Positions 33,064 to 46,618 of a stretch of 49,150 nt of DNA are shown here, one piece after another; position 1 is the stretch's first letter, and each line of letters starts with the position of its first letter. The stretch spans positions 1 to 49,150 of the forward strand of contig QIJL01000403.1 of NCBI GenBank assembly GCA_003232435.1, written 5' to 3'. Both the position numbers and the translations under genes were made by a program. The DNA is from Flavobacteriales bacterium. GTDB taxonomy: Bacteria > Bacteroidota > Bacteroidia > Flavobacteriales > Flavobacteriaceae. Under the pieces are notes generated by a model. The model saw nothing but the letters and a program-made list of their open reading frames with translations. It searched no databases and had not been told where the DNA came from.

Positions 33064-33918
33064 TTGAAAATCATTAGGAAAATACATCTTTTGCTTTCGA
33101 CCCTTGCCCATTTTTCTATCCCATCTTTTTTCTATGTTTGGATTTTCTGGCTTGCCGCAACTTTAGTGCTCCTCTCTAATCCAGAGTTTCAGGGTATCTC
33201 TCTCTATGTAATCTCAATACTAGAGGCACTTACCATTGGTGTTTTAATCTCTTTATCTTTTTCAATTATTTTCACTGGCCTGAAAAATTTTTACCCATCA
33301 GAAAATGATCATGTGTTGATAAAATCTGCCGGAATTGCTCAGAGTGCTCAGAGTGTGTATTTGCCGGGCGATGTTTATCATCAGGTCGCAATTCATGAAG
33401 CGGGTCATCTTCTTTCTCTTGGGCTTTATGAAACCCTTCCCGATACGATTGAAGTGTTTATAAATTCTCACTATTCAAACCCAACGGGAAATGTGTCTTA
33501 CCGCTACAAGAATGCTTATTCGTCTAGTTTTGTGTCCCGTCTGGCCGAGATGAAGTTTTCTCTTGCTGGGATAAGTGCTGAACTTGCCGTTTTAAATAAG
33601 GAAAAGCTTGGGTCTCGGAGTGATTATTCTGGTTGGGAACAAAAAGCAAGAGAGGTCTTAGATGAAGGTTATGGAATAAAACCTTGGTTTATCCATCCTT
33701 CAAATAAAGCCGAGGCGTTGATTAACGCCAAAACACTTAAGGCTATGAGATCGGAGCAAATAGATTATATGATGGAATTCATGAAAGAAAATTCTGAACT
33801 TATTCTTGAAATTGCTGAAGTGCTAAAAACTGAGGGTCGGTGCGCAACAGAAATAGTTTTACCTTTTATCAGCAGGGCAAAGCTGCTTTCTGTTCCTTCA
33901 CTTAAGCACAGAACCTAA
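33064..33918 (+). CDS. Stand-alone M41 (FtsH-like) membrane metallopeptidase
   Basis: 284 residues. Two hydrophobic segments (about 15-38 and 45-72) precede a soluble domain with the zinc motif HEAGH at 111-115 (YHQVAIHEAGHLLSLG). A second block, KFSLAGISAELAVLNKEKLG then SRSDYSGWEQKAREVLDEGYGI, matches the FtsH peptidase region that gives the third zinc ligand (Asp187). The AAA+ ATPase module of FtsH is missing, so it is a small ATP-independent relative. TTG start at 33064 has GGAG too close, so the start is uncertain. Confidence 0.7.
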   Translation: MKIIRKIHLLLSTLAHFSIPSFFYVWIFWLAATLVLLSNPEFQGISLYVISILEALTIGVLISLSFSIIFTGLKNFYPSENDHVLIKSAGIAQSAQSVYLPGDVYHQVAIHEAGHLLSLGLYETLPDTIEVFINSHYSNPTGNVSYRYKNAYSSSFVSRLAEMKFSLAGISAELAVLNKEKLGSRSDYSGWEQKAREVLDEGYGIKPWFIHPSNKAEALINAKTLKAMRSEQIDYMMEFMKENSELILEIAEVLKTEGRCATEIVLPFISRAKLLSVPSLKHRT

Positions 33919-34025
33919 GCCTAACTGAATCGCCCAGGATCAACGATCCTAAAGACTGGTAATCCATGGGCCCTTGCTGCGAGGCACGGCCACCATCGCC
34001 GATAGTAACGATGTTGTCTAGAATT

Positions 34026-34061
34026 TGCAGGGCTTTTTGTATTTTGAAGCAAAGCCCTGCA
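34026..34061. terminator. Hairpin between convergent genes
   Basis: Eleven-base arms (34026-34036 and 34051-34061) surround a 14-base loop between the rightward peptidase gene and the leftward RHH gene. There is no long T-run, so termination is only probable. A second small dyad, AGGATC-AAC-GATCCT, lies at 33936-33950. The rest of 33919-34099 shows nothing. Confidence 0.4.
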
Positions 34062-34099
34062 TTTGAGGAGGTAGATCTACATCCAACTAATTCTACTTC

Positions 34100-34300
34100 T
34101 CAGAGCTTGATATTTAATCGAATTTCTTCTTCATCCAATATTTTAGAAATTGCGTCCAAAATTAGATTTGATTTAGGTCTTCCCGTGATCTTGCGCCAAT
34201 TATCGAGACGTTCAAAATCTCTTCGGGATAGAAGGATAGGATAGCGGATACGAGATGAGCCTTCATTTACCCCATATTGCTGTCTTTTCTTCTTTTTCAT
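34100..34300 (-). CDS. Ribbon-helix-helix-like small protein
   Basis: 66 residues: a basic start (KKKKRQQYG), then a short beta strand (SRIRYPILLSRRDFERLD) and two helices (WRKITGRPKSNLILDAISK, ILDEEEIRL), the layout of RHH DNA-binding proteins such as CopG or MobC-type accessory factors. The ATG overlaps the preceding gene's TGA. Could be an antitoxin-like or autoregulatory protein of its operon. Confidence 0.6.
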   Translation of the reverse strand: MKKKKRQQYGVNEGSSRIRYPILLSRRDFERLDNWRKITGRPKSNLILDAISKILDEEEIRLNIKL

Positions 34301-34656
34301 TCAAACAAGGAGGCTTGTTGTGTGGGTTTCTTTTTTATCCGATTTATAGCTATTTTAAAGGCTTTATCTAGGAGGATCCCTTCCCGATGTATGGCCAGAG
34401 CTTGTCGGACTATTGGGATTTCATTTCGGTCATAAAACCGCTTTGCCCGCACTTTTTTTTGAATGGCAGTTACGGTCAACAATTTTTTCTCAAGGAGATA
34501 ATGTATGGCATTCCTATACGCAACCTTATCTTTTTTTGAGGCAGGGCATGCGGCCATAAAGTTCCGCAGCGATATATATCGTGATGGATCTGGTGGAGAT
34601 TGAACAAAAGTCACATGCTGCATGTTCTCTGTTTTTCGAATACGTTCTCGTTGCAT
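34297..34656 (-). CDS. Small basic protein, possible DNA-binding
   Basis: 119 residues, ATG 34656 with GAGG upstream. The chain is basic and helical; the block YISLRNFMAACPASKKDKV ... LLEKKLLTVTAIQKKVRAKR looks like a helix-turn-helix or excisionase-type fold followed by a helical tail. Its start lies within the 3' end of the preceding gene (46-base overlap), so the three leftward genes form an operon. Not matched to a named family. Confidence 0.55.
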   Translation of the reverse strand: MQRERIRKTENMQHVTFVQSPPDPSRYISLRNFMAACPASKKDKVAYRNAIHYLLEKKLLTVTAIQKKVRAKRFYDRNEIPIVRQALAIHREGILLDKAFKIAINRIKKKPTQQASLFE

Positions 34657-35075
34657 AAGGATTCCTCATAGGCAAGTTTTAGGCAGATACGGAGTTTCCA
34701 GACTGCATCTGCCTCCAGAGGGATGGAGATGCCTAGCGAGCCTCTATACCCATTGATAAAATAATTCCCGTTGTTTGCCAGGATTACTTTTATTGTCTTA
34801 CTGCGACTACGATATCGATGCACCAGGTTCAGCAATTCCCCACCCTGTGTGTGGTTAAAAGCAACGCCTAATTTTCCAAGGTCATCTCTTGAAAGCCTGA
34901 ACACCAGTTTGTTTTCCCAATCGTATTTACTCTTTCCGCTTCGTGGGAGCGTTTTTTCCATGCCGGGAAAAGTCTTGGCCATCTCCAGCCAGACGCTCCA
35001 TTCTTCCTGATAGACTTTCATTCCGATCCGGAGCGCACCGGATCCCCGATACCAGTTTTCTTCAAATTCTTTCAT
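34611..35075 (-). CDS. Whirly/MRP-like ssDNA-binding protein (candidate)
   Basis: 154 residues. An N-terminal YRGSGALRI strand, a central block KYDWENKLVFRLSRDDLGKL (50-69) and a later strand KTIKVILANNGNYFINGY followed by ISIPLEADAVWKLRICLKLA reproduce the order and spacing of Whirly domains, whose signature is YDW-x2-K...F-x-LS-x2-E-x-G. Whirly and MRP proteins bind single-stranded nucleic acid. A role in replication or protection of transferred single strands fits the element but is inference. First gene of the leftward operon; the start ATG is 35075. Confidence 0.5.
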   Translation of the reverse strand: MKEFEENWYRGSGALRIGMKVYQEEWSVWLEMAKTFPGMEKTLPRSGKSKYDWENKLVFRLSRDDLGKLGVAFNHTQGGELLNLVHRYRSRSKTIKVILANNGNYFINGYRGSLGISIPLEADAVWKLRICLKLAYEESLCNENVFEKQRTCSM

Positions 35076-35082
35076 ATCTAAT

Positions 35083-35104
35083 TCTATGCAGAATCTATGC
35101 AGAA
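35083..35104. repeat. Tandem 11-base direct repeat TCTATGCAGAA
   Basis: Two perfect copies abut at 35083-35093 and 35094-35104, just upstream of the start of the leftward Whirly-like gene. Position suggests an operator for the small DNA-binding protein or RHH protein of the same operon. A 12-base A/T palindrome (AATATTAATATT) follows at 35137-35148. Confidence 0.4.
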
Positions 35105-35700
35105 ATCAAACAATAAAAAAAAGGTTCAACACATCAAATATTAATATTGGAGGAACACCACGTCCTAACCTTATTTCAAGTGGATGGATATCGTGGATGA
35201 CAATAAGGTCACTAAGCTGACCCATCTACTAACTGAACATTCAGTTACCGCAAAGAAGCTTCTCCCCCCAAAAAAACCATCCATTCATCTCCCTGCAGCC
35301 CTGCATGCTCGATCCTTTGCCTTCCTCGCGGGGGAAACTCATGAAAAATCATGGGAACTCTGGGATAGGGGCCGGCAAGGGAAGGTATGGGAGGGCTGGG
35401 TCACGGGTATGGCTTTCTCGGAGGGGATAAAATAGGGACTGTTGGGTGGGTTTTGGGCCGGAAAAGATGTATTGCGCTAACTGAATGTTCAGTTAGATTG
35501 TGTAGGGGGGGTTTGAAATATCTGCGTAGACTTCTTTTGTTGTACGCCCTAGCTTATTTCCTATTATCGAATCTTGAGATCAATCAAAAACTGTGCACTC
35601 TTTCAGGTCAAATTTGTCCTCTCTTCGGAGGACTCACTCCCCCATTAAAAAAATTGGAAACCCCTTCGGGACTAGAGGATAAAAGTTAAAGAACAGCGGG
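35105..35700. other. Long gap with two operator-like palindromes
   Basis: No gene is supported. A weak rightward frame at 35184-35435 lacks a ribosome site. The strongest features are two palindromes, CTAACTGAACATTCAGTTAC (35229-35248) and CTAACTGAATGTTCAGTTAG (35477-35496), which are the same sequence in opposite orientation apart from the last base. They look like TetR-family operators, but no TetR gene is near. Confidence 0.5.
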
Positions 35701-38319
35701 CTACTGAACTTTTTTGACGCAACGAAATCCAATATTAAAGTACCGAGTAAATGGTTCAGTCCTATTATGGCTCGTACAGAGCGTAAAAGCCTGTTTGTTG
35801 ATCCAGGAGCCGCCGCGAAGCACTTCTCTGTCTTTACCTTTGTCATCCAAGTGATCGATCCACTCCCATATATTTCCCGCCATCTGAGCACATCCAGAGG
35901 GATTGTCTAACTTAGGATAGCTCTCGACGGAAACAACCTTTTTAAGTCCTGATTCTTCTGTGTTACACTTTTCTGTATCAAAGACATTCCCCCAGGGATA
36001 CCGTCTCCCACTTCTTCCACGTGCCGCCTTCTCCCACTGGATTTCTGTCGGAAGGGACAGGCCATATGCATAGGAATAGGCTTTTGCCCCATACCATGAG
36101 ACATAAATGACGGGATAATTCCCATAGTTCTTCATAACCTTGTATAGATCTTCTTCTTTAACAAGTCTGCATCGTTCATTTTTATAGCTTCCATCAAGAT
36201 CGATCCATTTTCTTAAGGTGTTTTGATCCGGTTTCGTTTGATTGAGAAATTTACAGTAGTCTTCATTAATTACCGGGAATTTATCCATCATGTACGCTTC
36301 CTTTACATCCAGAAGCTCGACAGGCCACTCATCTTTATGTTCATAAGAACCGTAAAGAAATTCTCCTTTGGGAATCAAGATCATATTGCCTTCGGGTTTT
36401 TTTGCTGAGAATGCGTTCTGTCGCTCTTCTTCCCTGAAAATCTCTTCAAGCCACTTTCTCGCCTTTTCATGCGACTTTGCCAGCGTATCTCGTACTTGCA
36501 AGGCATAGGTTCTTACTTGGTCGCTTTCGATTTTAAACAGGATGTCATGCCAGAATGCAATTTCGCTTTCTGGGTCTTCGGATTGAAGTGTGATCAGTTC
36601 GGAGAAGAAAAGACCGAGTTCCTGTTGATCGTAGGTCAGTTGGTGCAGTGTTTGAAAGAGTTTCTCGGCTTCTCCTCCTTCGCGCATGATTACTAATTGT
36701 TTTGCGGCAAAATATTCCTGAAAATTGGCGTGGTGATATTGATGTGTTTTTCCTTCAGATATCCCGGGAATAGCTTTGATGTCGGATTTTGATTCGATGT
36801 CTAGTACATGCTTGACCATACTAATCAAAAGTTCCGCCTGTTCCATTTCACCCAGGTGTTTATAAAAACGTCTGGCATTTTTCTTATGAAAAATTTGTTT
36901 TTCGCCTTTTGTAAGGAGTAGAAGAGAAAGCTCACTTAATTCGTCAAGCAAAACCTCATAAAAATATTCTGGCCGTTTGACTCCCGCTCTTCTATCATTC
37001 TTGAGCTGTTTTTCCATGAGGCGTTCGGTAAATCTTTCGAAAAGTTCTGCTTTCCCTCTGATCTGCGCCACTTGCCCGTCAAGGGCCAGAGACTTCACCA
37101 GCTTGGCTAAAAGCGGAATGGAAACGAGATCTTTTGGTACCTTCCTGAGCAAGGGTTTGATCGGGAAACGCGCCCCGAAATATCTTGAAAGTTGATCCTC
37201 ATCAAATGTTTGGATTGTATAGCCTTGAAGACCATCCACGTGGGTTTCGAGTTCCTTCAAGCGATGGGGTCGGGTGCTGATGATTAAAGACGCGTTGCCG
37301 ATCGCCTTATTTATAAAATTGTGGATGATGGATGTTTGTGAGATATCGATCTGGTCATAGGCATCGATGATGAAGATGATCCGGTTCTTTCTTAAAAGTT
37401 GGCTGATCAGGCCCTTGGTCTTGGCTTCCTTGAGTCCAATTTGTCTCAGCGCGGGTTCCAAGCGGGTTTCGATCTTTTTTTTAAGGTCGGCTAATTCTCC
37501 CGATTGAATGTCGGCGGTGTGGAGGTAGAGTGCGAGTTTTTTTTCGTTAAGAAACTTCATTTCAAGGTGAAGCATGAACAGGGTCTTTCCAACACCAGCG
37601 TTTCCGATAAAAACCATCCGCTTCCCTTGTTGCTTAATTATTTCATCATCAATGGATGTGACAGGTTCTGGCTTGCCTTCCCCGTCATTTCCCAAGCAAT
37701 CAATACGATTTTCGACATAGCAAAATTCCTTTGCATGGTCTTTACCTTCTCCTATTTTTTTGTCGAACTCTTTTTTTAGATCTTTGATCTGATCTTGGCA
37801 GTAGACGTCAATAATGTCTTGAACCTCTTGAGAGGAGATGTAGGTATCGAGACGATTAATGATTCTGCGCTGATCTTCTGGTTGCAAGAAGGGATTATTT
37901 TTGATCTCCAAACGGAGGTAGTCCCAGAAATAACCAAAGATCAATTCAAAGTGATCAGGAGGGAGTAAGGCGTAAACGGTATTCTGAACCTCTCGTTGAT
38001 AGGCCGCATAGAGTTTACCGCTATCAGGGCCTTCAAATTGCGTATCTGTAAAAAACCGCATGTATTCTTCGACAAAGGCCGGGTTTTTGAAAAGGGATTT
38101 TCCAAAGTGTTCTTCTAAGTGTCCCACCTCTATCGGTAATGCCTCGGTCTTAGACAAAAGGGTTTTGTAGGCGCTGTGGATGCCTCGGACGAGGGCTGCA
38201 CGCTTTTGGACGTCATTGAGGACATTTTTTATGAAGGGATCGACAGCTTTTTTCGCTAAATCTAAAAAGATATCCCCTAAAAGATTTTTTGCTAAAGCGA
38301 GTGTGAAGACTTCAAGCAT
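35701..38319 (-). CDS. NACHT/STAND NTPase with C-terminal FGE-sulfatase-like domain
   Basis: 872 residues. Residues 1-220 are helical and of unknown function. A NACHT domain follows with Walker A GNAGVGKT (239-246) and Walker B IIFIIDAYDQID (314-325), then helical regions to about 640. The C-terminus (646-872) is an FGE-sulfatase/C-type-lectin-like domain (ILIPKGEFLYGS ... PTEIQWEKAARG, YPWGN, LRGGSW, GFRCVKK). The paired active-site cysteines of true formylglycine enzymes are not evident, so it is probably a sensor or binding domain. NACHT proteins are used in bacterial immunity; a defence role here is inference. ATG 38319 has AGGAA upstream. Confidence 0.88.
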   Translation of the reverse strand: MLEVFTLALAKNLLGDIFLDLAKKAVDPFIKNVLNDVQKRAALVRGIHSAYKTLLSKTEALPIEVGHLEEHFGKSLFKNPAFVEEYMRFFTDTQFEGPDSGKLYAAYQREVQNTVYALLPPDHFELIFGYFWDYLRLEIKNNPFLQPEDQRRIINRLDTYISSQEVQDIIDVYCQDQIKDLKKEFDKKIGEGKDHAKEFCYVENRIDCLGNDGEGKPEPVTSIDDEIIKQQGKRMVFIGNAGVGKTLFMLHLEMKFLNEKKLALYLHTADIQSGELADLKKKIETRLEPALRQIGLKEAKTKGLISQLLRKNRIIFIIDAYDQIDISQTSIIHNFINKAIGNASLIISTRPHRLKELETHVDGLQGYTIQTFDEDQLSRYFGARFPIKPLLRKVPKDLVSIPLLAKLVKSLALDGQVAQIRGKAELFERFTERLMEKQLKNDRRAGVKRPEYFYEVLLDELSELSLLLLTKGEKQIFHKKNARRFYKHLGEMEQAELLISMVKHVLDIESKSDIKAIPGISEGKTHQYHHANFQEYFAAKQLVIMREGGEAEKLFQTLHQLTYDQQELGLFFSELITLQSEDPESEIAFWHDILFKIESDQVRTYALQVRDTLAKSHEKARKWLEEIFREEERQNAFSAKKPEGNMILIPKGEFLYGSYEHKDEWPVELLDVKEAYMMDKFPVINEDYCKFLNQTKPDQNTLRKWIDLDGSYKNERCRLVKEEDLYKVMKNYGNYPVIYVSWYGAKAYSYAYGLSLPTEIQWEKAARGRSGRRYPWGNVFDTEKCNTEESGLKKVVSVESYPKLDNPSGCAQMAGNIWEWIDHLDDKGKDREVLRGGSWINKQAFTLCTSHNRTEPFTRYFNIGFRCVKKVQ

Positions 38320-38769: not shown

Positions 38770-38814
38770 GTGCAGGTAAACTTGGGGTGTCGACTTGAGG
38801 TAGGTCATCACACA

Positions 38815-39780
38815 ATGGAAAATCAACCGACATTTTATGCTAAAGGCGATCCGACAGGGAAAACCTACCGAAAACAATTGGAACAAGGCTCGATTGTGAC
38901 CGTCCTCGAAGAAAAGTTTGAGATAGCCAGTCTCCTTGGGGTAGGTGCGGCGGGCGTGACCTACGAGGCACGCGAAGAGGGTGGTTCTGGCCGTCGCGTG
39001 GCCCTCAAGTTCCTTCAGCCGCTTCCACATTTTCTTAACTTAAATGGACAATTGGTCGACGAAAAATTTATTCGGCGGTTCAAATATGAAGCCAGGATTT
39101 CAGAAATTGGACCCCACCCAAACGTTGTCTCCGTCCTTAGATTTTCTCCCGGAAAGCTCTCTGCTGATTCCATGCCGCGATGGGTGATACCTCCCTTAAT
39201 CATCATGGAACTCGCCGGTGAAGGTACTCTGAGGAAGAAGATGTCTCAGACCTTTGATGAGAACGAATGCTTAATTTGGACCAACACGCTCCTTAAAGCC
39301 CTTGCCCATCTACATCGCCATGGAGTCGTGCACAGAGACGTGAAACCAGACAATATCCTGTTTCATGGTGGGGTCTTAAAGCTGGGGGACCACGGCGTTG
39401 CCAGATGGCCATCTGGCATCCTTGCGGATGACTCGTCACCTGGCACGATGACTGGAGCATTTGTCGGGACTCATAGATATGCCCCACCCCAGCTCGGTGT
39501 GTCCGAACCAGGAGAGCGTTTTCAACGAGACTCGTACAGACTGGACATGTTCAGCGCTGGTGCCACTATTGCGGAAATCTGGGGCTTTAAATGGAACCAT
39601 AATTTAGGGGAGCACATAGGCAGCGTCAGCTTTGAAAACTGGGTCAAGAATACCCCTCTACTCATCCAGCGTATTATCAGAAAAACCGTTACGAAATCTT
39701 GGGACCGTTATTATTCTGCTGTATGTGCTGTCGAGGATGTTTGTCATTTTTCAAGCAGCCTATCTGCCAAGGGACAATAA
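38815..39780 (+). CDS. Hanks-type Ser/Thr protein kinase
   Basis: 321 residues from ATG 38815; no membrane helix or sensor domain, so cytosolic. All catalytic motifs are present: glycine loop GVGAAGV (42-48), Lys65 in VALKFL, Glu92, HRDVKPDN (173-180), a DHG in place of DFG (Asp192 kept) and DMFSAGA. The activation segment ends in GTHRYAPPQ, where APE is usual. The stop is five bases before the next gene's ATG, so kinase and nucleotidyltransferase are one operon. Substrate unknown; the partner protein is the first candidate. Confidence 0.9.
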   Translation: MENQPTFYAKGDPTGKTYRKQLEQGSIVTVLEEKFEIASLLGVGAAGVTYEAREEGGSGRRVALKFLQPLPHFLNLNGQLVDEKFIRRFKYEARISEIGPHPNVVSVLRFSPGKLSADSMPRWVIPPLIIMELAGEGTLRKKMSQTFDENECLIWTNTLLKALAHLHRHGVVHRDVKPDNILFHGGVLKLGDHGVARWPSGILADDSSPGTMTGAFVGTHRYAPPQLGVSEPGERFQRDSYRLDMFSAGATIAEIWGFKWNHNLGEHIGSVSFENWVKNTPLLIQRIIRKTVTKSWDRYYSAVCAVEDVCHFSSSLSAKGQ

Positions 39781-39785
39781 AAAAG

Positions 39786-42242
39786 ATGCTTCAGAGTATT
39801 GCCGACCTAGACATCGCCAGTATTCTCGCAGCCTCACCCGATGGGGATAATGTATACCGCCTTGCGAGAGGCAATATTAAGAAAAGTCGCAAGACAAACG
39901 AAGGATTATTACTAATCAAGCCAGGAGGCACATTCAACGAAGCCACGTTGACGGAAATCTTCCGAAGAATCTTCGCGTTCCCATGTGGTGTGCTCGGTAT
40001 CCGAGTTTATGGTGGCCAATATATCGCTTGCAACGACTTGTTTGAAAAACAATACCCAGAGCCCACAAAGCTCGCTACTGGCACTCGGAAACTCGACAAA
40101 CTTGACTACGATCGCGCCCGATCCTTTTATGACGTACCAGAGTTTCGAGTGCGGTTTGGTCACTCATATAGCCCTGAACTTATAGTTGGAGCCACCGCCG
40201 TTGAGAGAAAGTATAACTTGTCCCCGTCTGATGTGTCACAGATGTGGGATTCCGGTAGAAAAAAAGACCTGTTTCATAATCACAGATTCGATGGGCTCAA
40301 TAAGATCGGTTTCCAAAAGAGCGTTTTCCCCATTTCCATCGGTTCGGAGGTTGTGCTCATACTAAACGGCTATGTTCCGGGATATCGCGCTCTGTTCGAG
40401 GATTTTCAAAACCGCGTCGTGGCGGTTTGGCTTACGACTGACCGTCCATGGGCAGATGTACGTGACAGGTTGGTTGGTGGACAGTCTGCTCCCCACGAAT
40501 GCAAGTCTGGCTCTATCCGTAGGGATGCCTACGCCAATATCATACCAATCGAGAACTCCCACGTGGATGGTCAACGTAACGTCGTTCACGCCAGTGCCAA
40601 CCTAGTCGAGGCATCTTTGGAGTTGGTCACGTGGTTCGAAGTCAAGGTTAGCGATACTCTGTTTGGCGACCGTTTTCAGGACCGAGTGAGGGATGTCGAT
40701 ATTCGGACATTGTGGACCGCGCCTGGTCATACGTTCGTCGAGACTCGTGACGACGATCTGCGTGCTACGATTGACGCTTGCATTAAGGAGATCTGGTACA
40801 TTCAGACGGAGAATGAAGGACGCTCGCAAGTATTCAATGATCTACTGAATGCTCTACAGAATTCGACCGGCCTCTCAACTGGGACACTCGCCCGCGATGG
40901 TGTCATCCGGACGTTGGTTTCTGGTGGAGTGGACCTCAACCTTGCTGGCAAACGCCTCTTCAAGAATGCCACTGTGCGAGGCCTGCTTAGCGAAGTAGCG
41001 GCTGTGTACAGCCAGGCGGCCAACGTAATTTTAGATCAGTGGACCCGTGATGAGATAAGCTCAGAGATAGCGGCCGAGGCAGTCCGGATCTGCGCTTCGG
41101 ATGCTTATCTGGTTCTTCGAAACGAGACGTTCTTCCCTCCAGAGTTAATCGACGAAATCGGTGCGACAATGGCTGAGCAGGCGATTAGTAGCGCAATGCG
41201 AATTTACGATAATGCCTGCGCTGAAATTAGGATAAAACTCGGCTTATTCGAGAATGAGGCGGTAATTCACAAGGAAGTGATGGTTGCTACGATGGCGGAG
41301 TCCGAAGCGTGGCGAGAGTTTCTAGCTACAGATAACGCGAGGCCCATCGCGGTCCCCCCAGATTGCGAGACAGTTGGACTGATTCTGGCGGGGGGACGGT
41401 CGACTCGCGTGCGGACAACAGTACCGAAGGCGTTGCTACCTGTCGGTAAAGAACCGATGCTGAATATGGTTCTGAGGGCATTACAGGCATCGACTTGTAC
41501 TAAGATTTTCTGTGCAGTTGGCTGGCGGAACGACCTAATGGCAAAGATTCTTGGTAAGTGGGACTCCTATTTGGATGTGGAACCTTTAGTGTACAGTAAA
41601 ACCCCTGGACTCGGACTGCGAGTCGCCACTTGTCTCCATCAGTTGCGTGAATTCCATGGCAACATCGTGATTGCCTACTGCGACATGCCGGGAATTTCCC
41701 CCGTCGACATAATCCGATTATTGGATCAGGTAAAAACAGAAGATGCCATCGCGGGGATTCTCACCGCTAGGACCGATAGATTATCCGGGCATATCCAGAG
41801 GCTGAAAAGCCGAGTCTCCGGGGTCGTTCAGGGCCGAATGGATCCGAATTTCTACTCCGAGGAGCGGGACTACGGAGTGAATGTGTTCAGGAACTCTTCA
41901 CTACTTCGAGAGACCCTACTTGGTTGCCGGAATGACAACCCGAGACGTGAGTACATTCTTGCCGATGTCTTCTCAGCTCTGCATCGGAGTGGACTGCCAG
42001 TCGCAGACGTCGACGCAAAAAATAGCATTATGTTCGGGGTGGACACACCTCAAGACTTGGTTCTGTTGGGCTCAGGTCTGCACAAGCGGCTAGGTAACTG
42101 CTTCGAGACCCAGAGAATTGGCCCGAGCATTGCCGAGGCATTTTTGTTATCCTACAACCTCCCAATCGGAGCTGACGAGATAGCAAAGGATGTAGCTGAA
42201 GCCCTTACAGGACGTTTTCGTCCAGTCCTTTTCCTGCGATGA
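39786..42242 (+). CDS. NDK-like and GlmU-like nucleotidyltransferase fusion
   Basis: 818 residues from ATG 39786 (AAGGGA ten bases upstream); the longer open frame lies in the kinase gene. Residues 38-285 carry nucleoside diphosphate kinase signatures: GLLLIKPGGTF, GSIRRD and NVVHAS with His268 in the catalytic position, but with an insertion of about 90 residues. Residues 290-525 are helical and unknown. Residues 529-765 are a sugar-nucleotide-type nucleotidyltransferase: LILAGGRSTRVR, PKALLPVGKEPML, YCDMPG with metal-binding Asp633 and GVDTPQDL. Codon third positions are more G/C-rich than in the transfer genes. The combination with a protein kinase is not one I know. Confidence 0.75.
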   Translation: MLQSIADLDIASILAASPDGDNVYRLARGNIKKSRKTNEGLLLIKPGGTFNEATLTEIFRRIFAFPCGVLGIRVYGGQYIACNDLFEKQYPEPTKLATGTRKLDKLDYDRARSFYDVPEFRVRFGHSYSPELIVGATAVERKYNLSPSDVSQMWDSGRKKDLFHNHRFDGLNKIGFQKSVFPISIGSEVVLILNGYVPGYRALFEDFQNRVVAVWLTTDRPWADVRDRLVGGQSAPHECKSGSIRRDAYANIIPIENSHVDGQRNVVHASANLVEASLELVTWFEVKVSDTLFGDRFQDRVRDVDIRTLWTAPGHTFVETRDDDLRATIDACIKEIWYIQTENEGRSQVFNDLLNALQNSTGLSTGTLARDGVIRTLVSGGVDLNLAGKRLFKNATVRGLLSEVAAVYSQAANVILDQWTRDEISSEIAAEAVRICASDAYLVLRNETFFPPELIDEIGATMAEQAISSAMRIYDNACAEIRIKLGLFENEAVIHKEVMVATMAESEAWREFLATDNARPIAVPPDCETVGLILAGGRSTRVRTTVPKALLPVGKEPMLNMVLRALQASTCTKIFCAVGWRNDLMAKILGKWDSYLDVEPLVYSKTPGLGLRVATCLHQLREFHGNIVIAYCDMPGISPVDIIRLLDQVKTEDAIAGILTARTDRLSGHIQRLKSRVSGVVQGRMDPNFYSEERDYGVNVFRNSSLLRETLLGCRNDNPRREYILADVFSALHRSGLPVADVDAKNSIMFGVDTPQDLVLLGSGLHKRLGNCFETQRIGPSIAEAFLLSYNLPIGADEIAKDVAEALTGRFRPVLFLR

Positions 42243-42750: not shown

Positions 42751-45700
42751 TTATTGGTTTAGAAAATCAAAATAGCTCGATAACCTCATATTTTCTTCAG
42801 CAACGTCTTGAATTTCCTGCTCTAAGAGTGTTGTTAAGGATGAGACCTTGAGTTCCTGAGTCCCTTCGAGTCGCGTAACATATTGCGGCATGCGCTCTTC
42901 AATGGCTTCCTTGCAAAAGCCTTCCACTGTTGCAGCATTAAAGACGGGTTTAGTGTCAATGAAATGAAAGACTTCTTTGTCAGGAAATAACTCTGGAAAC
43001 GATCGCTGATGAATTTGTGAGAAGAGCAAGGTATTCAACATAAATGCCTTCCCGTTTTGTATGTCCGGGAAACCTGAAATCATCTGGGGGGAAACCACAT
43101 CGAAGATCTTGATGTTTTCTTTTAACCGCCCCAGATGTGCGATCACCGGGGATTCTGGATTAGATTCGAGTAAAGAGTTCTCTTGGGTATTGATCATTTC
43201 AAAATGTTGCGGAAAAAGCGGCCGCAGACGCCCCGCCATTTGTAAACGAACTTCTGCGTTATCCATGCCCTCGCTCATGAAACCGTACTGCACAAAAAAC
43301 AGATTGAATCCTTTTAAAATAGATTTAGTTGTAGCAACCAAGGTCCGACCCATTTGATCGCTTAGTTGATCAAATGCACCTAATATGGTGTAACGGTCAT
43401 TCTTTTTTGTTTCTCCTGTGACTGAAAAGTTGGCTTGGGTTGAAGATGCGAGGCTTTGTTGTGAAAAGCGGTATCGACAAGAAATTAAAAGAGGGACTTG
43501 ATGTTTCCGGGTCAGTTCGGCCATTTTCCCAGCAAAAGCTTCAAAGCTTGCAGATTTGGCGATCACCTCGCGAATTCGTTCGACGTCTCCCTCTTCGATT
43601 TTTAGCGTGATCCCTTGTTTTGCCAATAAGGTATACAGACGGTGCAAGATCCGATCGGCAAAACGCAGAACCAAGGGAAAGTTGACTGATTCAGATGCTT
43701 TAAAAATAATGCCATACTCTGCCAATGTTTGTGCCAAATCAACATTTCTTGAGCCAATATCGTGGAGTACTTCTGATACCCGATCATTTGATATCAGCCT
43801 TTTTGCAAGGGCCTCCAGGGTCGTTAAAGTTTCATCCAGAAAAATGGGATATTTGGAGAGAATTGAAGGTCGAAAATGGTACAAACCATCTTCTTCTTGC
43901 TGAATGCGTTCGATATCCTTTTTAAAAATATCGAGTATCTGTGTGCATGATTTATTTTCACTATCGAAGTTTAGGGCGACCGATAATGTTTCGAGTATCA
44001 GCGCCCGTTTTTTGGAGATTTCTTCTTCAGCTTTTTTGTTGGGTGTGCCGTTTTTGTCATTTGAGTCTAATAAAGTGAGTAATTCAAAATACCTGACGGG
44101 CGCAAAGAACTGTGCCAGCTCCTCTACGAGCCGATGCCCAAGGATTTTCCCTTCTGCCATATTTTCCAATAACGCGATCATTTCTTCTTTTTGATCGGCG
44201 TTAGCGGCCCAATAAGGATGATGTTCTGTTTCATCGACGATTTGGAAACCTTTGTGAACTTTTCGTCGTGTGACTTCTTCCTGTTGAGTAAGCGCAATAC
44301 TGTGTAAATGCGCGTAGGTGCTCAGAAAATCCAATCGAAGCAGGGCACATTCCTTCTCTACTTTTTTTCTGACCGCGTGCCAAGTATGCGAAGATGAATG
44401 AACCTTGCGGATTAAATTGACAAACATGGTGAGGTTTAGAAATTGCCGGATCTTTTCCAGTACTTCAAGGTTCGTTACAGATTCCAGTAGATTGGGTTTT
44501 AATTGTTTGGAATTAATCTGGAAATGTACTTCATCTTCAGCATTGAGTGCTCGGTCATAGGTAAATGAAGCACTCATTTCTTTTAAAAGAGGCAAACAAG
44601 GAATCAATGCATCAAGATCTCGTGATCCGGCATGCACGAGTGGTTTTTCCAACCCAATAAAGGATTGGGCCGATTCTCGCACAGGTTGTACGATCCGGGT
44701 ATAGGAAACCCCCAATTTTTGCATAATATCTACACGATTTGGACAGATCGTCTGTCCGTTCTTTTTTGTCCCAAGCCAGGAGCGAATGGGATAACATCCC
44801 CTCGCATAAATCGCATGATAGTAGAGCGTGAGAATGGCGCCGGCACAATCGGTGTAGATGAGTTCGTACATATGCTTTGATCGACCATTGCCATTTTGAG
44901 AATCAATTGTGTCCCAGTGAATCAAAACGCCGGTTCTAGAATGACTCACATTCAGTAGCTTTAGTAATTGTTCTAAAGTCATTTTGTTTTTACAAATACA
45001 GGAGAGGTTTTGTATCTCCCAACTCATTTTGTGGCTGACCTTTGGGTAGTGGTGGAGAAACGACCCGATATTGATCAGATTTGTATTAATTAAATAAAGG
45101 AAATCACCTGTGTCATTATTGGCCGGAGTTGCTGTAAGTCGATAGTCCAACCAGAGGGCTCTCTTCTTTTTCAAATATCCGATGAGTGTCTCCATTGCTG
45201 ATGAAATCCCGCTTTCTGTGTTTTTTAGGAAAGAGGATTCATCCGAAACCAGCATGAATCGGAATCCCTTTCGGATTAGGATTTCCAAGGGTTGGGTAAT
45301 GGCGTCTTTTGTTTTGAGCCCGAATTCGTGCCGACTCAATACGACACAATCACCTGATTGGATATTGAGGGAGGTGAGATCTTTCAATTTGACATGATAG
45401 AGAGTATTTTTCGGCACGCCCATTTCGATCATAGAATTAACGACATTTTCACAAAGACTGGCTTCTGTAAGAAAGAGTGTTATGAAATCGGCGGGTTTTT
45501 CTCCTTTATTGATTTGTCGTTCTCGGATTAACTCTGCAAACATTTTGATGAAGATGGGGGTCGTGTAGGTTTTTCCAGCCCCCACCTGAGAAAAATTGTT
45601 TAGTTTGAAATAATCTTTCGGATGCCGCTTTTCTGAGAGGAAAACCTTCATGCTTTCATAGGTGTAAAAGAGTGCCTTTTTTTGCATTGATGTCGGAGAA

Positions 45701-46551
45701 CCAGAGAACGGTTCACTCAACCTATTGATGAAGATTTCAAATAAACGGTAGTCATCCCGGAAAGGATCAGCATCTTGTGATTTTAAGAGGGATTTTTCTA
45801 ATGCCTTGGCGCGAATTGAGATGAAGGTTGTAAGTGAGGCCCATGACGCAATAGAGGAGACAAACATATTGTCGCAAAGCGGCATGACTTGGAGGAACTG
45901 ATTTAAAGTGTCACGAAGCTTTCCTCCGAGGTGTGCGATGATAGTTTCATTGCACAAATGGTCTGTGAAGTGTCCAACTTCGATATTGTTCGTGGTGACC
46001 TGATTGCCTATTTCTAAAAACATGTTCCCAAGCATTGTATTGTCTGGCACATTGGTATAGAGATATTTGAAGAACCGATAGTCTTTAAGGAAGCGATTTA
46101 TTTTGGGGGCCTTTTTTGGACTTTCTTCCTTTTCTTTTGGTTTAATTTCTTCATATTTAATGGTTTTTTCCTCACTGTAGAACTTTGTTTCTAGTGCGCG
46201 TAGTTTGGACAACAATATTGTGATGGGCAAAATTTCCTCTTGAAATAGAGAGATAAAGTTTTTTCTAAATGGTTTTGTGTAGGGCAGAAGAAACAAACCC
46301 GTTTCGTGGGATACAGGCTTTATTTCAATGGGTTTCCCGCGATACTGTTTCTTTGGAAAATTGAGCGTAATTTCTTGAAATTCAGGAATTTGAATACCTT
46401 GAATTGGGTTAACGGGCTGAAGAAAAGGGAGGTTCTCGCTGATTCTTTCTTTAATCGCATCGGGGGATTCGTTCAGGCCTTGAATGGTGTTCTGTAAGAA
46501 TTGGAGTTGGTAAATTCTTTCTTTCAATGCTTCTATGATTGTGTTTTTCAT
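42751..46551 (-). CDS. Giant SF2-type helicase with DESS motif
   Basis: 1266 residues from ATG 46551 (GGAG upstream); the frame continues into the hairpin upstream and that part is rejected. After 300 residues of helical N-terminus come motif I QVGAGKT (ending at 328), motif II DESS (437-440) and motif III TATPAN. More than 600 residues separate these from motif VI, QMAGRLRP (1104-1111), preceded by FVQYGFMSEGMDNAE. That insertion is far larger than usual. Motif set is that of SF2 helicases used in restriction, recombination or remodelling; no nuclease or methylase motif is seen. Probable mobile-element or defence helicase. Confidence 0.8.
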   Translation of the reverse strand: MKNTIIEALKERIYQLQFLQNTIQGLNESPDAIKERISENLPFLQPVNPIQGIQIPEFQEITLNFPKKQYRGKPIEIKPVSHETGLFLLPYTKPFRKNFISLFQEEILPITILLSKLRALETKFYSEEKTIKYEEIKPKEKEESPKKAPKINRFLKDYRFFKYLYTNVPDNTMLGNMFLEIGNQVTTNNIEVGHFTDHLCNETIIAHLGGKLRDTLNQFLQVMPLCDNMFVSSIASWASLTTFISIRAKALEKSLLKSQDADPFRDDYRLFEIFINRLSEPFSGSPTSMQKKALFYTYESMKVFLSEKRHPKDYFKLNNFSQVGAGKTYTTPIFIKMFAELIRERQINKGEKPADFITLFLTEASLCENVVNSMIEMGVPKNTLYHVKLKDLTSLNIQSGDCVVLSRHEFGLKTKDAITQPLEILIRKGFRFMLVSDESSFLKNTESGISSAMETLIGYLKKKRALWLDYRLTATPANNDTGDFLYLINTNLINIGSFLHHYPKVSHKMSWEIQNLSCICKNKMTLEQLLKLLNVSHSRTGVLIHWDTIDSQNGNGRSKHMYELIYTDCAGAILTLYYHAIYARGCYPIRSWLGTKKNGQTICPNRVDIMQKLGVSYTRIVQPVRESAQSFIGLEKPLVHAGSRDLDALIPCLPLLKEMSASFTYDRALNAEDEVHFQINSKQLKPNLLESVTNLEVLEKIRQFLNLTMFVNLIRKVHSSSHTWHAVRKKVEKECALLRLDFLSTYAHLHSIALTQQEEVTRRKVHKGFQIVDETEHHPYWAANADQKEEMIALLENMAEGKILGHRLVEELAQFFAPVRYFELLTLLDSNDKNGTPNKKAEEEISKKRALILETLSVALNFDSENKSCTQILDIFKKDIERIQQEEDGLYHFRPSILSKYPIFLDETLTTLEALAKRLISNDRVSEVLHDIGSRNVDLAQTLAEYGIIFKASESVNFPLVLRFADRILHRLYTLLAKQGITLKIEEGDVERIREVIAKSASFEAFAGKMAELTRKHQVPLLISCRYRFSQQSLASSTQANFSVTGETKKNDRYTILGAFDQLSDQMGRTLVATTKSILKGFNLFFVQYGFMSEGMDNAEVRLQMAGRLRPLFPQHFEMINTQENSLLESNPESPVIAHLGRLKENIKIFDVVSPQMISGFPDIQNGKAFMLNTLLFSQIHQRSFPELFPDKEVFHFIDTKPVFNAATVEGFCKEAIEERMPQYVTRLEGTQELKVSSLTTLLEQEIQDVAEENMRLSSYFDFLNQ

Positions 46552-46579
46552 GGGATCTCCATCAAGAGTCTTGAAAAAT

Positions 46580-46618
46580 AAAAGGCCCAACTTTCTATAC
46601 AAGAAAGTTGGGCCTTTT
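46580..46618 (-). terminator. 17-bp perfect hairpin in the helicase leader
   Basis: Arms 46580-46596 and 46602-46618 are perfectly complementary with a five-base loop, and on the minus strand a T-rich run follows (TTTTATTTTT). It ends only 29 bases before the helicase ATG at 46551. It would stop transcripts from the toxin-antitoxin genes and anything that starts upstream, acting as a terminator or attenuator. Confidence 0.8.

Follow-up and report, generated by a model that had tools for sequence, protein, structure and literature searches.

A bacterial protein of the Whirly order is encoded, together with a MerR-type and a ribbon-helix-helix (RHH)-like protein, in a small operon of the window, the 49,150-nucleotide stretch of DNA (contig QIJL01000403.1, assigned to a Flavobacteriales bacterium) that was analysed as a whole. 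Upstream of the operon lies an element bounded by palindromes, and the Whirly-MerR module and this cis-element together suggest a DNA-maintenance system undescribed in the accessible literature; in the open-access literature, to which most subscription papers do not belong, we found no description of bacterial Whirlies in this context. A preliminary description of positions 34100-35104 had placed the coordinates, the repeat and the motif correctly, but it omitted the cis-element at 35230-35495, the exchange of RHH for AbrB in relatives and the clamp-type tail of the MerR-like protein. The features of the locus are:

34100..34300, minus strand: RHH-like protein, 66 aa, conserved in the RHH-type loci and recognised as RHH by sequence pattern
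34297..34656, minus strand: MerR-type helix-turn-helix protein, 119 aa (108 aa from Met12), from alignment and MerR_1 matches in homologs
34611..35075, minus strand: Whirly-order protein, 154 aa, from Pfam, profile searches, alignment and Foldseek of a homolog's model
35081..35109, minus strand: predicted sigma-70-like promoter, TTGATT-17-TAGAAT, enclosing the repeat; the sole promoter-like match in 33900-35700
35083..35104, minus strand: 11-bp tandem repeat, TTCTGCATAGA twice on the coding strand, proposed RHH operator, with a lag-11 repeat in relatives
35230..35247, no strand assigned: palindrome proximal to the operon, an inverted copy of TAACTGAACATTCAGTTA, from the same single-pair search as the distal one
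35248..35477, minus strand: strand-asymmetric interior of 230 bp, with C 0.45/G 0.12 and then G 0.35/C 0.17 on the operon strand
35478..35495, no strand assigned: palindrome distal to the operon, TAACTGAACATTCAGTTA on the operon strand, forming one inverted pair in the whole genome assembly

Computation places the 154-aa protein in the Whirly order by sequence homology, as had been proposed from the window alone. Its sole Pfam match is PF08536 (Whirly; E 2.8e-4, 21.2 bits against a cut-off of 23), and all seven aligned homologs match Pfam Whirly and no other family (best E 3.9e-5), with the relative G451:C343 reaching 23.7 bits, above the 23-bit cut-off. Plant Whirly chains account for six of the seven matches, individually weak (E 0.09-0.7), in a phmmer search of the PDB with the window protein, whereas a seven-sequence profile places StWhy2 and AtWHY2 first (E 0.0016-0.0036), with Whirlies again providing six of seven matches. 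Comparison of the bacterial profile with four plant Whirly chains by hhalign gave a probability of 95% over 93 columns (E 3.8e-8 for one comparison). The segment KYDWENKLVFRLSRDDLGKL (residues 50-69) is the conserved core of the protein, reading KYDWE..KLVFRLS in the window, and MAFFT aligns the window's RGSGAL (residues 10-15) on the plant KGKAAL motif, which in higher plants mediates ssDNA binding and the hexamerisation of Whirly tetramers (PMC9070903). At this position the bacterial homologs read RGSGAL, RGAAAL, RGSGTL, KGSAAL or KGSSAL, lacking the second lysine; this loss need not bar Whirly status because an StWhy2 chain in the PDB (3r9y/3r9z/3ra0) reads KGAAAL, and algal and Marchantia Whirlies are likewise without the motif (PMC9070903). 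By homology the protein belongs to the Whirly order, and it is predicted to bind ssDNA.

Structural comparison tentatively favoured the assignment for a homolog and gave no useful matches for the window protein itself. The low-confidence model of a Manganitrophus homolog (pLDDT 41) shows the order bbbba-bbbba, and its first 14 Foldseek matches are PURA, trypanosome MRP1/2 and WHY1, in keeping with the likeness to trypanosome MRP proteins noted earlier; the window protein's own AlphaFold model (two sequences, pLDDT 39) returned only noise. The window protein's score under the Pfam cut-off and the lack of useful matches to its own model could be taken to mean that this is an ordinary small DNA-binding operon, in which a protein of different fold carries a Whirly-like segment by chance. 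However, the exclusive Whirly matches of all seven homologs, the hhalign probability, the motif alignment and the restriction of the homolog model's first 14 matches to PUR, MRP and Whirly proteins make this very improbable.

Measured against the plant set (WHY1-3, StWhy2 and p24; PF08536), the bacterial proteins share the strand order, a KG(S/K)xAL start, the GxxKYDWE..F.LS core, the blocks RK-L-(I/V), FF-I and VP(V/L), the length and the predicted bbbba-bbbba arrangement. Unlike the plant proteins they are plasmid-borne and lack a transit peptide, the FFHDP motif and the C-terminal GW; the second lysine of KGKAAL is replaced by Ser, Ala or Asn, identity is only 19-21%, and there is a conserved MerR-type partner and a cis-element. 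The topology matched by Foldseek in the low-confidence model would place them beside MRP1/MRP2 and PUR in a nucleic-acid-binding superfamily, but MRP and PUR proteins are eukaryotic, act in RNA editing or neuronal roles and gave no profile sequence match. Weak Foldseek matches also point to the half-repeat topology of PC4-like proteins (T5 PC4, BPSL1147, AcrIIA22), which have a nucleic-acid role in mobile elements (PMC8545432); unlike the bacterial Whirly these are single-repeat proteins of about 54-125 aa, and no sequence relation to them was detected.

Whirly homologs with 41-42% identity to the window protein are encoded on three Candidatus Manganitrophus plasmids, all complete (hereafter W1-W3), and others occur in one Manganitrophaceae MAG and further Nitrospirota genomes. 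A Whirly gene is present in five of six sampled genomes of the Manganitrophaceae-containing family and the module in 3 of 396 genomes sampled from Nitrospirota; the other genomes sampled from the class and phylum of the window contain none, and neither do the phages and viral contigs searched for the Whirly-order protein. Conservation of the module is evident from these comparisons: the Whirly and MerR-type gene pair is present in every intact locus, and these two are the only genes, among the window genes compared, to occur on all six replicons. The neighbourhood survey advocated in the preliminary description recovered the Whirly, MerR and RHH genes with a lag-11 repeat in four further loci (L013, L014, L015 and L099), so the arrangement in the window is more than chance, while AbrB replaces RHH in Manganitrophus. 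L099 served as a held-out check of the module architecture: found by protein alone after that architecture had been defined, it has the palindrome pair, the strand switch and the core as well as the 11-bp repeat and the full set of three genes. In G451 a second copy of the module (L007/L012), with an in-frame TAG in the Whirly gene and a split MerR frame, lies beside the intact, divergent copy L013, and represents either a decaying paralogue or sequencing errors. The Nitrospirota genome G586 (contig C17, L090 1267-1950) encodes a distinct 227-aa bacterial Whirly in an unrelated neighbourhood. Whirlies have been called plant-specific (PMC9070903), and the earlier statement that they are known mainly from plants agrees with that view; nevertheless the window is not the sole bacterial case, as the G586 protein exceeds the Pfam cut-off (42 bits), and this second, distinct Whirly implies that the order is more widely present in Nitrospirota.

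The three open reading frames run as first described, on the minus strand at 35075-34611, 34656-34297 and 34300-34100, tightly packed with Whirly first, then the MerR-like and then the RHH gene, the last two overlapping by ATGA. The helix-turn-helix and RHH partners named at the outset can be specified further. The MerR-type gene has a conserved Met12 (34623) as an alternative start, and the MerR_1 profile matches three of five homologs (best 1.4e-5) with the window copy below detection. The RHH-like product has no Pfam match and a weak NCBIfam RelB-like match (E 0.011). PHROGs and PADLOC gave no match for any of the three proteins, and a check for a type II toxin-antitoxin system found no toxin profile in the operon (Pfam, PHROGs, NCBIfam, PADLOC). 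The tail of the MerR-type protein is distinctive: LF ends it in all six lineages and Q..LF in four of the six, against 18 and 0, respectively, of 850 ORFs from the same replicons, and in the window it reads QASLFE, extending one residue beyond LF. It resembles beta-clamp-binding tails, whose consensus is QLxLF and which are usually C-terminal (PMC4549789), and may bind the clamp.

The repeat that had been placed before the operon as an operator is an exact tandem copy of TCTATGCAGAA at 35083-35104, between the predicted -35 and -10 boxes, and has the top score (44) among eight tandem arrays in the window. A lag-11 repeat of the CTATGTAGA type lies just before the first start codon in all five RHH-type loci, with runs of 8-12 matches at lag 11 versus at most five at other lags, and is absent as such from the AbrB-type loci. 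The promoter prediction is not significant alone, shuffled sequence giving a mean of three, but the relatives have -35/-10-like boxes that enclose the repeat at a spacing similar to that in the window. On the Manganitrophus plasmids the third gene (RHH) is missing, Whirly is preceded by an AbrB gene and other repeats lie upstream, which indicates that a change of regulator goes with a change of operator, with the Whirly and MerR genes retained. The 11-bp repeat is a putative operator of the RHH protein. Rfam has no match in 33900-35800.

The upstream element spans 250-340 bp; its two 18-bp palindromes form a single inverted pair that flanks a C-rich/G-rich strand switch and an AT-rich core (about 35325-35355 in the window). 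The pair is unique in the window's 4.1-Mb genome assembly, and a degenerate pattern, which has no matches in controls, finds exactly one inverted pair per genome or plasmid in all seven examined, each time upstream of the Whirly operon. The two copies differ by 0-1 bases within an element and by up to seven between elements (the palindrome is TAGCTGGACAGTCAGCTA in G706 and TAACTGAACATTCAGTTA in the window), as would be expected if one protein recognised both sites. Of four replicons tested, W1, W3 and G634 have their strongest local C-to-G switch here, and in W2 it shares first place. Across elements the core (GAGTTTTCGAGATTTTTGAGAGAGTTTT.GCGCG in G634) can be aligned, least well for the window and in Manganitrophus only as its reverse complement; the element is thus inverted there relative to the operon and is not simply an operon leader. 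Searches of plasmids and phages with the element DNA gave convincing matches to the Manganitrophus copies only.

Several interpretations of the element were discarded. It is not one long hairpin, as the folding z-score of -4 to -6 stems from the flanking palindromes and the interior alone gives -1.1 to +1.4 against shuffled sequence. Paired G-quadruplex arms are seen in some elements only, G4 potential not being uniform, and do not define it. With one pair per genome the palindromes are neither a dispersed regulon nor a MITE. They are also unlikely to be LexA boxes, because a LexA gene adjoins the element only in G706 and lies near it in W1, and no LexA was recognised next to the element of the window. 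Nor does replicon-wide GC skew mark the element as the main origin, since the extreme lies elsewhere in W2 and W3; as part of the replicon range, skew at the element is 0.43 in W2, 0.75 in W3 and 0.10 in W1.

The window had been described as a conjugative element, and an F-type T4SS, a coupling protein (VirD4) and a DnaG-like primase bear this out; together with a Replic_Relax-like protein they are shared with W2, W3 and G634. A 1283-aa protein without a family (42751-46602), 46-47% identical in W2, W3 and G634, is part of this conserved conjugative backbone. OB-fold SSBs (PF00436) are encoded neither on W1-W3 nor on the module's contigs, and copies lie on other contigs of the genomes. W2 encodes RepA/ParAB about 29 kb from the module and W3 a RepA relative; the 80-kb circle W1 has no homolog of W2 RepA, ParA or ParB. 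W1 (CP114563.1, 80,778 bp) is colinear with about 214-294 kb of W3 (CP114554.1) and may have arisen by excision as a circle or in assembly. In Manganitrophus the module neighbours genes for HU, LexA, Pol-Y and an SOS-associated peptidase. In the window the element is preceded by a candidate defence gene, encoding a NACHT NTPase fused to an FGE-sulfatase-like domain (35701-38319; weak Nhi/AbiO matches). A Ser/Thr kinase ORF (38770-39780) is followed by an overlapping one for a large protein that ends in a MobA-like NTP-transferase domain (39699-42242), and a membrane protein with a HEAGH metalloprotease-type motif (33064-33918), absent from related replicons, is convergent with the operon. In tetranucleotide profile the window resembles Nitrospirota contigs more than it does several contigs of its own MAG, which has 6% contamination; the contig may therefore be misbinned or a recent arrival.

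Our best explanation, held tentatively at somewhat below even confidence, is an autoregulated plasmid module that handles ssDNA at its own cis-acting site. We infer its four steps from the anatomy of the locus. The RHH protein, or AbrB, would repress the operon, RHH doing so via the 11-bp repeats between -35 and -10. Dimers of the MerR-type protein would bind the paired palindromes, a role proposed for it because both persist when AbrB replaces RHH. The AT-rich core would then open and Whirly oligomers would coat the exposed G-rich and C-rich strands, and the Q..LF tail may tether the sliding clamp at the element. The net effect would be that DNA synthesis is established or re-initiated on plasmid ssDNA, during replication restart or after conjugative entry, with the module standing in for an SSB encoded by the plasmid. 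Conjugative plasmids frequently encode an SSB early in transfer (PMC11541004), and the loss of Whirlies in plants increases microhomology recombination and impairs repair (PMC6981420). We favour a role in ssDNA handling and establishment, in replication restart or conjugative establishment. A plasmid DNA-initiation system, in which Whirly and a clamp-tethering MerR-type protein act at a dedicated cis-element that serves for initiation or establishment on plasmid ssDNA, is a possibility to which we give about one chance in three. Against the ssDNA-handling explanation stand the position of the skew off the element in W2 and W3, the non-uniform G4 potential, an interior that folds like shuffled sequence, the undetected MerR_1 domain in the window, the serine in place of the second lysine of KGKAAL and the pLDDT of 39-41 of the models.

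The module may serve as an origin, in transfer or in repair. The element might be an oriT or a single-strand promoter or initiation site, with Whirly as the ssDNA-binding protein of a leading region: there is one element per replicon, in the window and in G634 the F-type T4SS, VirD4, primase and Replic_Relax gene common to these replicons are 4-5 kb distant from the module, and RHH proteins commonly act as relaxosome auxiliaries. SSB genes often accompany SOS inhibitors and structured ssDNA promoters in leading regions (PMC11541004), and a Whirly would be analogous to the plasmid SSB and PsiB genes behind Frpo, as an ssDNA-binding-type protein on a conjugative plasmid behind an unusual cis-region. 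It differs in being a Whirly instead of an OB-fold SSB and in not always lying near transfer genes, from which the module is about 70 kb away in W2 and W3, with W1 having none. Moreover, no Frpo-like hairpin is apparent, the interior folds no better than shuffles, in Manganitrophus the element is flipped with respect to the operon, and neither a nic site nor a relaxase was identified. We rate this as unlikely, at perhaps one chance in four.

A replication origin proper, with a MerR-type initiator, Whirly as melting or ssDNA factor and the AT-rich core as unwinding element, would account for the paired predicted binding sites, the sharp strand switch and the clamp-type tail, and W1 is without homologs of W2 RepA, ParA and ParB. 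Yet W1, colinear with part of W3, may itself be an assembly or excision product. The skew and the RepA/ParAB genes about 29 kb away argue that the element is probably not the main oriV of W2, and it is unlikely to be the main origin of W3, whose replicon-wide skew does not point to it and which encodes a RepA relative; skew minima lie elsewhere, and we consider an origin improbable. Still less probable is that Whirly and MerR control plasmid genes (HU, LexA, SOS) from the G-rich upstream region. Plant Whirlies are transcription factors and nucleoid proteins (PMC9070903), and genes for HU, a LuxR-type protein and LexA are neighbours, but these neighbours are not conserved in the window, and a regulon is contradicted by palindromes that occur nowhere else in the genomes.

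The plasmid-borne Nitrospirota branch bears on the origin of the organelle Whirlies and offers a bacterial context for testing whether their role is ancestral or arose in parallel. If the module acts at its cis-element, it would extend the known means by which plasmids manage single strands to an ssDNA-binding protein without an OB fold and a discrete site in the DNA.
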